From NCBI GenBank assembly GCA_016283355.1, contig JAEEMS010000004.1, forward strand, positions 1-39,237: 39,237 bases of DNA, given 5' to 3'. This DNA comes from Elusimicrobiaceae bacterium (lineage in GTDB: Bacteria > Elusimicrobiota > Elusimicrobia > Elusimicrobiales > Elusimicrobiaceae). A program made the position numbers and the translations under genes. Below the pieces are notes generated by a model. That model was not told the origin of the DNA, did not search any database, and was given only the letters and a program-made list of their open reading frames with translations. Shown here piece by piece: positions 5,849 through 29,696 of this stretch (positions are counted from its first letter, which is position 1; every line of letters starts with the position of its first letter).

Positions 5849-7627
5849 ATGTTTTCTAAAAAAACGAAAAATAGTTTTTCCTCTAAAACAACCGGGCACG
5901 GTGTCATCCGTCCGGGAGAGGAAAAAATCAAAAAAACGGTAACTGCGGCCAAGAAAAAGCCGTTTACTTCTTTATTTATTCTCTCTACTATTTTGTTGGT
6001 TGTCTTATTGGCTTTTACCTTTAAAAGTGGATTTGTACCTACTGCGAAAAGTAAAAAAATAGAAGATATTGTGGTAGTTCATACGCCCACAGAAACGGCG
6101 GATGAAATGACGGATCTTCTGCAAAAAAAAGATACCAATCAATTTTTAGAACTCCTTTCAAAATACGGTAAAAAAGATGTCAACATGGTCAACAGCAAAG
6201 GGGATACTTTGTTGCTGGTGGCCGCTACGCTTGGAAATGAAGTAGCGGTAGATGAATTATTGGCCTTGGGTGCCGACGTAAACAAAGCCAATGCGTTTAC
6301 CAAAGATACCCCTTTGATTCGCAGTCTTTCTTATGCAACGCCGGACATCTCCAAGCGTCTTGTATTTGCCGGTGCCAATTTAAATGCCAAAAACAACTAT
6401 AACCAATCGCCGTTGTTTATTGCGCTTGAAAAACAAGAGCAAGAACTGATTGACTTGTTTTTATCAAGCGGCGTAGAAGAAGGGCTCAATACGAATTATC
6501 TCTTTCGCGCGGCTGCCAAAAAGAATCCTTTGGGTGTACTGGCCATGCTTAAAGGGGGGGTGGACGGTAACGTGGCCAACGAAAAAGGAAACACACCGTT
6601 GATTATCTCCGCCTCACAAGGGGATGTGCTGAGCGTTCATTATTTACTGATGTACCGCGTGGATTTAAATGCCGCCAACCAAGCCGGCAATACTGCTTTG
6701 ATGTATGCATCCCTTTACAATCATCCGGAAGTGATCGAAGAGTTGTTGCAACCGCAAACACTGCAAGTTCCGTTGGATGTTAATGCAAAGAACAAACAAG
6801 GCCAAACCGCACTTTATTTAGGGGCTTCCAAGGGATTTGTGGAAGTGGTACAGCGCTTGCTGGCAGCCGGGGCGGACCCTACCATTGCGGCGAATAACGG
6901 TATGGTTCCTTATACGATTGCACAAAAGATGAACCGTACCCAAGTGTTAGAATGGTTTGAAAAACCGTTAGAAGAGGTAAAAGAAGCGGTTGCCAAAGCT
7001 GATCACGACCGAGCCGTCGCACAAGGCCTAGTGTTGCCGGATTCTTCCGATTCGTCCGCACAAGAAAAACCTTTGACGGAAGAAGATGTTTTCACCGCTA
7101 TTGCCCAAGAAGATGTGTCCAAATTTAACCGTGTTATCAATATTTACGGGCCTTTAGTGGTACAGAAGAAAGACCGGGAGCAAATGTCCGCTTTCTTGCG
7201 TGCGGTTGAAAAAGGCAATACGGAAATCGTAGATATTGCGTTGGATAACAGTGCCCGCATTTTTGAATCTTCCCCCAAAGGAAACGCATTTCACATAGCG
7301 GTACGCACCCAGAATTTGGATATGCTCAAACACATGGTGCAACGTGCTCGTGAAAGCGGTAACCTGTCCATGATGCTGGAATATAAGGCCATCGTACCGG
7401 GGATACAAGTGGTATCTAATTTGGGAACATTGGTCCCTGTTTCGCCGTTAACGGTAGCCGCATACTTATGTGATTACGAAATTTATAACTACTTAGTTTC
7501 CATTGGGGCAAAACCGGGCGTGGGCGGCAATTCTCCGGCGGACCTATTCTCTAAGTGTAAAACCAAGCAAGTACAAGCCAAACAGTTACGTACCCAAGCC
7601 ACCACGCAACAAAACGCCAGAAGGTAA
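5849..7627 (+). CDS. Membrane-anchored ankyrin-repeat protein
   Basis: This 592-residue protein has a basic cytoplasmic N-terminus and one transmembrane helix (residues ~39-58, SLFILSTILLVVLLAFTF). A long extracytoplasmic ankyrin domain follows. Recognisable repeats include GDTLLLVAATLGNEVAVDELLALGADVNKAN, GNTPLIISASQGDVLSVHYLL, GNTALMYASLYNHPEVIEELL and GQTALYLGASKGFVEVVQRLLAAGADP. A second, weaker block lies at about residues 415-560, after a charged linker. It starts four bases after rnc, so it is probably co-transcribed, and it ends at the terminator at 7641. Ankyrin repeats bind proteins; the partner is unknown. No catalytic domain is seen. Confidence 0.88.
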   Translation: MFSKKTKNSFSSKTTGHGVIRPGEEKIKKTVTAAKKKPFTSLFILSTILLVVLLAFTFKSGFVPTAKSKKIEDIVVVHTPTETADEMTDLLQKKDTNQFLELLSKYGKKDVNMVNSKGDTLLLVAATLGNEVAVDELLALGADVNKANAFTKDTPLIRSLSYATPDISKRLVFAGANLNAKNNYNQSPLFIALEKQEQELIDLFLSSGVEEGLNTNYLFRAAAKKNPLGVLAMLKGGVDGNVANEKGNTPLIISASQGDVLSVHYLLMYRVDLNAANQAGNTALMYASLYNHPEVIEELLQPQTLQVPLDVNAKNKQGQTALYLGASKGFVEVVQRLLAAGADPTIAANNGMVPYTIAQKMNRTQVLEWFEKPLEEVKEAVAKADHDRAVAQGLVLPDSSDSSAQEKPLTEEDVFTAIAQEDVSKFNRVINIYGPLVVQKKDREQMSAFLRAVEKGNTEIVDIALDNSARIFESSPKGNAFHIAVRTQNLDMLKHMVQRARESGNLSMMLEYKAIVPGIQVVSNLGTLVPVSPLTVAAYLCDYEIYNYLVSIGAKPGVGGNSPADLFSKCKTKQVQAKQLRTQATTQQNARR

Positions 7628-18271: not shown

Positions 18272-18856
18272 TTAATGTTCCTTGAGAAAGAAATAAATTC
18301 TTTGTTCTCTGCAACTAAATACCAGAAGCAATTTATGATCAAAACCTTTTGGTCGGAAAATCACTTCTACTACACCATCTTGTTTCTTTTTAGCGGATGT
18401 AACAACCCCAGCATTGTCAGATTCTAAGAATAGAAATACTAGACGTGCCACTTCCATCTCATCCAATTTAACCAAATCCTTCGGTTGCGGCACAACAAAT
18501 TTAAATTCCTTCACAGTTTCCTGAAAACTGATTGCTTTTTGAATTGTTTCTCTATGCTGTGTAAATAGACCTGCATCTTTAGCACTAACGGAAACTTGTT
18601 CGTAAACAGGCGTTTTCCAGCCATACATATTGTCACCCACATAGCTAGGGCGTTTGATGTGTTGCAGTTCTTCTTTTACTAACGCTAACCAATTAATGGA
18701 TTGCTTTTTTGATTCTGCTTTTTTTGCATTACCTGCTTTTCTTGAGACCGTCGGTACTAATTTTTCAGACATCTCCACATCGTACCTAGTCAACTGTGCA
18801 TAGGCAGATGTACACAGTACAACTCCCAGCAAAATAGTTAATATATTCTTTTTCAT
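18272..18856 (-). CDS. Exported protein of unknown family (paralogue B)
   Basis: This 194-residue protein has a signal peptide (residues 1-20, ending SAYA) and AAAGGAG before the ATG. It is homologous to the 189-residue protein downstream (shared NWLALVKEELQHIKRP, FKFVVPQPKDLVKLDEMEVARL and GVVEVIFRP regions). No cysteine pair, lipobox or catalytic motif stands out. It lies first in a two-gene unit under a promoter of the class also found at 23167 and 28539, with a paired 19-bp site abutting the -35. A role in the envelope or outside the cell is inferred only from the signal peptide. Confidence 0.82.
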   Translation of the reverse strand: MKKNILTILLGVVLCTSAYAQLTRYDVEMSEKLVPTVSRKAGNAKKAESKKQSINWLALVKEELQHIKRPSYVGDNMYGWKTPVYEQVSVSAKDAGLFTQHRETIQKAISFQETVKEFKFVVPQPKDLVKLDEMEVARLVFLFLESDNAGVVTSAKKKQDGVVEVIFRPKGFDHKLLLVFSCREQRIYFFLKEH

Positions 18857-18886
18857 TTTTTTCTCCTTTCTTTTATTTTTAATTTT

Positions 18887-18952
18887 ATTGTAAATATTTT
18901 CTATCTCTACAGAAAGGGTCTTTGTACCCAGATAGATAGGTACAAAAGACCC
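18887..18952 (-). promoter_or_regulatory. Promoter with paired 19-bp regulatory sites (locus 1)
   Basis: On the minus strand, site TATCTGGGTACAAAGACCC (18934 to 18916) directly abuts -35-like TTTCTG (18915-18910). A 17-bp spacer and -10 TACAAT (18892-18887) follow. A second, inverted site (GATAGGTACAAAAGACCC on plus, 18935-18952) lies next to it, making a large palindrome. The T-run beyond it is on the plus strand, away from any gene end it could serve. Confidence 0.6.
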
Positions 18953-18968
18953 ATTTTTTTATAGGACC

Positions 18969-23194: not shown

Positions 23195-23290
23195 ATTTTA
23201 CATAACAATTTTATCCCTCACAAGGGCCAAAAGTCCTATATGCTTTCTAGAACTTTGGGCCCTTTTTATCTTTGTATAATTTGCTAAAAT
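23195..23290. promoter_or_regulatory. Divergent promoter region with paired 19-bp sites (locus 2)
   Basis: On minus, site CATATAGGACTTTTGGCCC (23242 to 23224) abuts -35 TTGTGA (23223-23218), followed by 17 bp and -10 TAAAAT (23200-23195). The inverted partner CTTTCTAGAACTTTGGGCCC (23243-23262, plus) abuts TTTTTA (23263-23268), followed by 16 bp and TAAAAT (23285-23290), 6 bases before the HAD ATG. The palindrome could therefore control both genes. Confidence 0.6.
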
Positions 23291-28423: not shown

Positions 28424-28495
28424 CATCTAGGTCTTTTGGCCCATTCTCATCTAGGTACAAATACCCTTGCGGATCTCTCCCAATATTTCTATTAT
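28424..28495 (+). promoter_or_regulatory. Promoter with two direct 19-bp regulatory sites (locus 3)
   Basis: Sites CATCTAGGTCTTTTGGCCC (28424-28442) and CATCTAGGTACAAATACCC (28448-28466) are direct repeats 24 bp apart. The second abuts -35 TTGCGG (28467-28472), followed by 17 bp and -10 TATTAT (28490-28495). The GTG start at 28539 has AGGAG upstream. The arrangement matches those before 18856 and 23167. Confidence 0.65.
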
Positions 28496-28538: not shown

Positions 28539-29696
28539 GTGAAGAAATTATTTGCTTTCTTATTAATTTGTTCTATCCCGGTTCTCTCGTTTGGAGCACC
28601 TGGGCATAGCTTTTGGAAAGGAATTTTTAGGAAAAACCGGGCTCCCGCGCAAGGGCAAGTGCGACGAGTAGGAAACTTTGCACCGCATGGCTATATTTCG
28701 CAAATCACGCGCAAAATAGGGCAACGGGCAAAGGAAAAACAACCCACCGTTCATCCGGTAATTTCCGCTTTATTCAAAGAGAGATACCCGCAAATAACCC
28801 CTAAGCTGCCTGAAAATTTCTTTGAGGAAATACCTTCTATTGCGCAGCGGACGAATAAACTTTGTCTGTTAGAATCACAACTTCCTTATTTATATTTAAC
28901 AGACACTAACAGCATCTTTTTTGAGCGTCTTGGCGCAACGGACGATATCGTTGTGGTACGCCTAAGACGGAATTTAGACGTATTTGACCCGGGCTCTCAA
29001 AAGTTCTATACACTCAAAAAATCTTCTACCTTAAATATGCAAATCTCGCAACTGTTGGAATTGCGCAATCAATTGCAACTCGACGACACCAACACCGTCC
29101 AGGCCAAAGCATCCGACTTGCAAACCATTGCATCCGCTTCTTCTGGGGCACGTAGTTTCTTATTTCAGGAAGAATTATTCCCGTTGGCATTATCACTCGA
29201 CAATAAGGTACTGGGCGAACCGTTTATTGCGGCCAGTCAAGCGGAACCCGGGTACGAAATAGGTGTAAATCTGAAAAAACCGTTATTCGTATTTTCGAAA
29301 GAGAAACAATCTTTCGTTCCCTTTTCAGAAGGCAGTTACTTATTTTTCACCTCTGATGGGCAAAATGTCTCCCATGCATCGGGTGTTCCTACCGCCCTTA
29401 CGAAAGAAACCCTTCTCAACCTGGTGGCAAACGATACAAACCATGTATTTTTTGAAGAACCCTTTGCCATTCGTTCTCTTTTAGACGGAAGAATGCACCA
29501 AGTATACCGTGCCAATTTTAAAATAACAATAGAAGGAACCTCTCAATGGACGCCAAAATTCATTCCTGCCGGGGATTATCTGGTACTGGACCCGGAAAAG
29601 GGATCTTTTCAAATATTAAAAGGGGATTCCAAGTTTGTTCCTGCCGGAAACTCTTTGGTGCTGGATCAGGGACAACAATCATTTACAACATTATAG
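28539..29696 (+). CDS. Exported modular protein 1 of a four-gene operon
   Basis: This 385-residue protein starts at GTG, 6 bases after AGGAG, with signal peptide residues 1-20 (ending LSFGA). No known family is recognised. It holds about three diverged copies of a module: a short helix, then an extended pattern ending P-L-F-V-F..F-V-P-F-x-E-G-x-Y-L. The copies lie at ~105-165, ~203-272 (GARSFLFQEELFPL ...) and ~284-350. The extreme C-terminus repeats a 21-residue unit (FIPAGDYLVLD and FVPAGNSLVLD). The three genes downstream encode related proteins. Export is clear; the function is unknown. Confidence 0.8.
   Translation: MKKLFAFLLICSIPVLSFGAPGHSFWKGIFRKNRAPAQGQVRRVGNFAPHGYISQITRKIGQRAKEKQPTVHPVISALFKERYPQITPKLPENFFEEIPSIAQRTNKLCLLESQLPYLYLTDTNSIFFERLGATDDIVVVRLRRNLDVFDPGSQKFYTLKKSSTLNMQISQLLELRNQLQLDDTNTVQAKASDLQTIASASSGARSFLFQEELFPLALSLDNKVLGEPFIAASQAEPGYEIGVNLKKPLFVFSKEKQSFVPFSEGSYLFFTSDGQNVSHASGVPTALTKETLLNLVANDTNHVFFEEPFAIRSLLDGRMHQVYRANFKITIEGTSQWTPKFIPAGDYLVLDPEKGSFQILKGDSKFVPAGNSLVLDQGQQSFTTL

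Follow-up and report, generated by a model that had tools for sequence, protein, structure and literature searches.

A quasi-palindromic operator phased to the -10 marks a candidate class-II-like activator regulon for exported proteins in a gut genus of Elusimicrobiaceae

Could a single regulator stand behind three promoters which, within one stretch of an Elusimicrobiaceae genome, share a site abutting the -35 and lead to genes for exported proteins? The window in which they lie, the whole 39,237-nucleotide stretch of DNA analysed, is contig C10 of a 1.40-Mb genome in 29 contigs. Promoter 1 (28467..28495, plus strand) consists of a -35, TTGCGG (28467-28472), and a -10, TATTAT (28490-28495), separated by a 17-nt spacer. 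Its promoter-proximal site, which touches the -35, occupies 28448..28466 (plus strand; core 28453-28466, AGGTACAAATACCC) and a distal site, located by sequence inspection and matrix scan, occupies 28424..28442 (plus strand; core 28429-28442, AGGTCTTTTGGCCC), the two cores having the same orientation at a core-to-core distance of 24 bp. The distal core is identical to the exact consensus and obtained the top score (27.4) of the 424-kb sample described below. The gene that follows (28539..29696, plus strand, GTG start at 28539) encodes a 385-aa signal-peptide protein for which a Pfam scan returned no match. Promoter 2 (23195..23223, minus strand) combines TTGTGA and TAAAAT, again across a 17-nt spacer, with a proximal site at 23224..23241 (minus strand; core 23224-23237, AGGACTTTTGGCCC) and a distal site at 23245..23262 (plus strand; core 23249-23262, AGAACTTTGGGCCC) positioned 25 bp from the proximal core; it leads to a signal-peptide protein with DUF4424 (PF14415; 21986..23179, minus strand). 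Promoter 3 (18886..18915 to within a base, minus strand) has TTTCTG, a 17-nt spacer and TACAAT, with a proximal site at 18912..18929 (plus strand; GGGTACAAAGACCC when read along transcription, on the minus strand) and a distal site, inverted relative to it, at 18939..18956 (minus strand; GGGTCTTTTGTACC). A 194-aa signal-peptide protein follows (18272..18856, minus strand), also with no match in a Pfam scan. Thus, the three promoters of common architecture proposed in the original prediction are all found at their predicted locations, and the expected signal-peptide protein is encoded behind each of them.

The site had been presented as a 19-bp form, and this form is present at all three promoters, but a quasi-palindrome whose 14-bp core is RGGYC-N4-GRCCY describes it more accurately. 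A matrix derived from a 424-kb sample, representing ∼30% of the genome and comprising contigs C3, C4 and C11 together with the window, gives the motif as TAGGYC-TTTT-GRCCY with a 5-4-5 core geometry. The argument that six sites in the window exceed chance could not be decided from the window alone, in which there are three examples and one 14-mer, allowed as many as 3 mismatches, has nine matches versus 5.0 expected; two weak matches within genes (11584 and 36512) are at chance level, and scans with promoter and terminator consensus sequences gave values near those of shuffled sequence and were uninformative. The argument did hold for the whole genome, in which the 15-mer TAGGTCTTTTGGCCC with up to 2 mismatches has 43 matches versus 2 for the reversed pattern. 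In the 424-kb sample, 53 intergenic matches were observed compared to 5 for a reversed-matrix control, in intergenic DNA amounting to only ∼8% of the sample, while matches inside genes were at chance (19 versus 16 in the control) and the matrix scan detected none between convergent genes. Random scatter, a location inside genes or a location at gene 3' ends would each have told against a regulon; the sites are instead intergenic and precede signal-peptide genes.

This distribution also bears on a reading in which the sites are hairpin-forming repeats, either intrinsic terminators or copies of a dispersed repeat element. For both inverted pairs in the window, folding is indeed stronger than in shuffled sequences (z -3 to -5), and the pair at 18912-18956 sits just after glyS. 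In contrast, no folding is seen for the direct pair at 28424 (z -0.2), the region between convergent genes is devoid of sites, the phase with respect to the -10 is fixed, and the flanks differ among copies while the cores are kept across species, making this reading extremely unlikely. As a separate observation, the 18912-18956 pair folds strongly into a hairpin whichever strand is considered, and may also serve to terminate glyS.

Returning to the operator reading, the second copy at each promoter had been classified as direct in one case and inverted in the other two. This proved to be no real distinction, as the site is quasi-palindromic and direct and inverted copies are therefore equivalent; the constant feature is the core-to-core distance. 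Of 53 pairs, 36 have their cores 22-25 bp apart and a further 14 have them 45-48 bp apart, in all orientations, compared with one pair in the spacing control. Arrays hold from one to four sites, with four in line at L002. This layout resembles that of phage lambda CI at OR1/OR2/PRM, where dimer sites lie ∼23-24 bp apart and the promoter-proximal one, near -42, activates; the one CI-like protein examined here, XRE-S24, is missing from two of the motif-bearing genomes.

The position of the arrays with respect to transcription was determined from 42 promoters leading to signal-peptide genes. Counted from the end of the proximal core, a TANNNT begins at +23 nt in 21 and at +24 nt in 12 of these (33/42 together), with a binomial P of 8e-22 for +23. 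The motif matrix was built without use of the -10 regions, and the -10 phase is therefore independent evidence. The fixed +23/+24 position of the -10 places the proximal dyad near -42; a class II geometry, in which a dimer site centred near -42 abuts the -35 and the -10 is in fixed phase, is thus found in 33/42 promoters. As originally proposed, the site abuts the -35; the form TTnnnn given for that element was less apt, since the bases directly after the proximal core are T[TG]G in most of the 42 promoters, and TTGACA occurred in that position in none of the 42.

Two further rivals are addressed by this geometry. The site could represent an extended -35 recognised by an alternative (ECF) sigma factor, as the genome does encode a small sigma-70-like protein and the site directly adjoins the -35. 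Sigma elements, however, are not palindromes with further copies 22-25 bp upstream, as this site is, and the -10 conforms to the usual TANNNT; we regard this explanation as very unlikely. Alternatively, the sites could bind a repressor or anti-activator. Sequence cannot reveal the sign of regulation, and operator arrays beside a promoter also occur with repressors; against this, the sites end at the -35 and leave the -10 and the start uncovered, while the 42 promoters have poor -35 elements and up to four sites extend upstream, the usual layout for activation. Repression is accordingly judged improbable, and the putative regulator is likely to activate its targets.

The identity of the targets was investigated in the sample using genes with >70 bp of upstream space, a site being counted when within 200 bp, and signal peptides assigned by a home-made rule. 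A site is carried by 20 of 57 signal-peptide genes compared to 6 of 142 other genes (Fisher P=5e-8). Approximately 25 such promoters in 424 kb suggests, by extrapolation, roughly 80 genome-wide. The target proteins are diverse, with sparse pairwise similarity, and most of those scanned lack Pfam matches, the exceptions being DUF4424, a trypsin-like protease, ankyrin repeats and a weak ChaN-like match. The exported ankyrin protein on C11 is a member of the regulon; in the window, a 592-aa ankyrin-repeat protein is encoded at 5849-7627.

Conservation beyond this genome was examined in the window's relatives, which are gut metagenome genomes labelled Elusimicrobiaceae, Elusimicrobium or Candidatus Avelusimicrobium; a published set of isolates from chicken caecum makes mention of Elusimicrobium (PMC6069880). 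The motif is above control in 25 of 25 same-genus genomes, own included, the 24 others having 8-30 matches versus 0-7 in the control (TAGGTCTTTTGGCCC, up to 2 mismatches); in 16 sister-family genomes as a group it is not above control. In nearly every same-genus genome with a scorable locus, the best site precedes a signal-peptide gene. The DUF4424 gene is too rare in the genus for footprinting and a 484-aa gene family was used instead: a 483-484-aa exported protein is a common target in seven species, and across the seven orthologous promoters both sites hardly change, in contrast to the sequence that separates and flanks them, with the proteins themselves at 17-80% identity to the first. The operator is retained between species even as some target genes are gained or lost. 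A more distant relative, G041, in which the response regulator RR-A discussed below has 60% identity, shows this array at two promoters within a 320-kb sample, while G043 yielded no such array promoter in 300 kb and no diverged form of the motif when one was sought. Thus, the wider regulon that had been predicted is borne out by a motif that recurs across the genome and in independent species, phased to the -10, and a genus-wide regulon with this promoter geometry is very likely.

A separate feature was observed in G041, which is Elusimicrobium-like. In the 320-kb sample, 14 of 28 pilin-like genes (GFTLIELLVVVLII; L341-L356) have promoters in which a run of 14-19 T lies between the -35 (TTGACA or TTGACT) and the -10, with spacers of 15-23 nt. 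T runs are prone to changes in length by slippage, and these therefore look like a family of phase-variable pilin promoters.

Which protein might bind the operator? The closest resemblance is to sites of NarL/FixJ regulators. The OsdR consensus of Streptomyces coelicolor, AGGGCCGATCGGCCCT, conforms to the DevR site (PMC5069765). As in the sites of OsdR and of DevR/DosR of Mycobacterium tuberculosis, the motif described here is a short GG...CC palindrome with a four-base centre, and the OsdR/DevR half-site AGGGCC equals its right half. Compared with the full palindrome AGGGCC-N4-GGCCCT, the right half is identical and the spacing is the same; the left half of the motif is TAGGYC and its centre is T-rich. 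NarL/FixJ regulators, one of them encoded beside a HisKA_3 kinase, also occur here. The systems differ in that DevR/OsdR act in other phyla on stress and dormancy genes, whereas the targets here are exported proteins and not genes of the dormancy or stress class, with the link between site and binder predicted from sequence. A second comparison is SsrB of the Salmonella SsrA-SsrB system, which recognises an 18-bp palindrome of 7-4-7 form, switches on secreted factors and has no strict spacing between its sites and the start (PMC2837388). The loose spacing of SsrB sites differs from the fixed spacing observed here, and the SsrB half-site mCCyTA seems to point in the opposite direction in the palindrome relative to the present motif. 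Given the OsdR/DevR half-site match, together with the SsrB palindrome, the likeliest binder is a NarL/FixJ regulator, although the chances that the candidate does belong to this family appear about evenly balanced.

Two NarL/FixJ response regulators, RR-A and RR-B, are found throughout the genus genomes. RR-A (G000:C28, 216 aa), whose nearest solved relative is EsrB of Edwardsiella, with SsrB matched as well, is encoded in a gene adjoining that of a HisKA_3 histidine kinase in which no membrane segment is evident. Identity to RR-A is at least 65% in 24 of the 25 genus genomes, and in the sister family it does not exceed 46%. G042-G044, in which the motif is not enriched, also encode RR-A, at ∼55% identity and with almost the same recognition helix, and no motif site was found upstream of RR-A or its kinase. 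The orientation of the half-site, nearer to that of DevR/OsdR than to NarL/SsrB, argues somewhat against RR-A, which is put forward as the best, though tentative, candidate. RR-B, close orthologues of which occur in the motif-free sister family, is a minor candidate. At L161:2549-8114, the RR-B gene follows those for a 622-aa kinase and a receiver-kinase hybrid and precedes genes which, by eye, are TadE/TadG-like; from this gene context, RR-B may control a Tad-type pilus.

Several other families were considered and rejected. CRP/FNR was suggested by the combination of a 5-4-5 palindrome and the -42 position, and PF00027 was detected in 0 of 25 genus genomes; Lrp/AsnC (PF01037) was detected in 0 of the 19 genus genomes searched. 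The gene for the MarR protein P0004 is itself preceded by a promoter with two motif sites, but among the 25 genus genomes only 6 encode a strong orthologue of this protein (66-100% identity) and one other gives a weak match. At L051:6037-10041 the MarR gene, with two motif copies upstream, is followed by a gene for a 1136-aa protein that by eye resembles a lysophospholipid transporter/acyltransferase/acyl-ACP synthetase fusion, and a second MarR copy is located at G000:C13:29614. The XRE-S24 CI-like protein is encoded by 24 of the 25 genus genomes and is matched no more than weakly in the sister family; it was not found in two genomes that bear the motif, G022 and G041, and the promoter of its gene has a distinct conserved element. 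This element, TTAGTATAGTAAGTATTGTTAGCATTTGTCAAG, is strongly conserved in the promoter of the CI/LexA-like regulator (L162:3999-4688, L290-L312). Between this element and the start, some species have a variant of the RGGYC site with longer spacing; in G000 the XRE-S24 gene adjoins a terminase gene.

The same regulon could also be controlled by a regulator of another family, whether winged-helix, TetR, GntR or of a new kind, with RR-A and RR-B as bystanders. The presence of RR-A where the motif is not enriched and of RR-B orthologues in the motif-free sister family is consistent with this, as is the coverage of the screen for helix-turn-helix proteins, ∼30% of the genome. Set against it are the agreement of the half-site and the 5-4-5 spacing with the DevR/OsdR class and the seemingly regulator-poor character of the genome, in which CRP/FNR and Lrp/AsnC are absent and the sample screened contained few obvious regulators. 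A regulator of another family is a serious possibility, if slightly less than evenly poised.

Taken as a whole, the observations are probably best explained by a class-II-like activator regulon for exported proteins with a candidate NarL/FixJ regulator. The site would be the operator of one dimeric DNA-binding regulator, dimers of which would bind side by side along the array. The promoter-proximal dimer, centred near -42, would contact RNA polymerase and recruit it to a -35 too weak to function alone, that is, by class II activation. Phosphorylation driven by a signal, with RR-A and its HisKA_3 kinase as the putative pair, could then switch much of the exported protein set in concert. A more far-reaching version is possible but rather doubtful: that one so far unknown regulator, possibly outside the families listed, sets approximately one third of the promoter-bearing exported-protein genes across this gut genus, with ∼24-bp operator arrays replacing a proper -35 and with targets that change rapidly between species.

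Activator regulons with operator arrays are already known; what is new is this regulon, its unusually strict geometry and its narrow target class, and a search of the open-licence literature found no paper on such a regulatory motif for this phylum. For these bacteria, a target list, an operator and a short list of regulators are now available, and the operator provides a handle on the proteins exported under shared control in uncultured or barely cultured inhabitants of the gut. As some target genes are gained or lost under a retained operator, the system is a possible model of repertoire turnover, and may show how a secreted repertoire is exchanged under a fixed switch.
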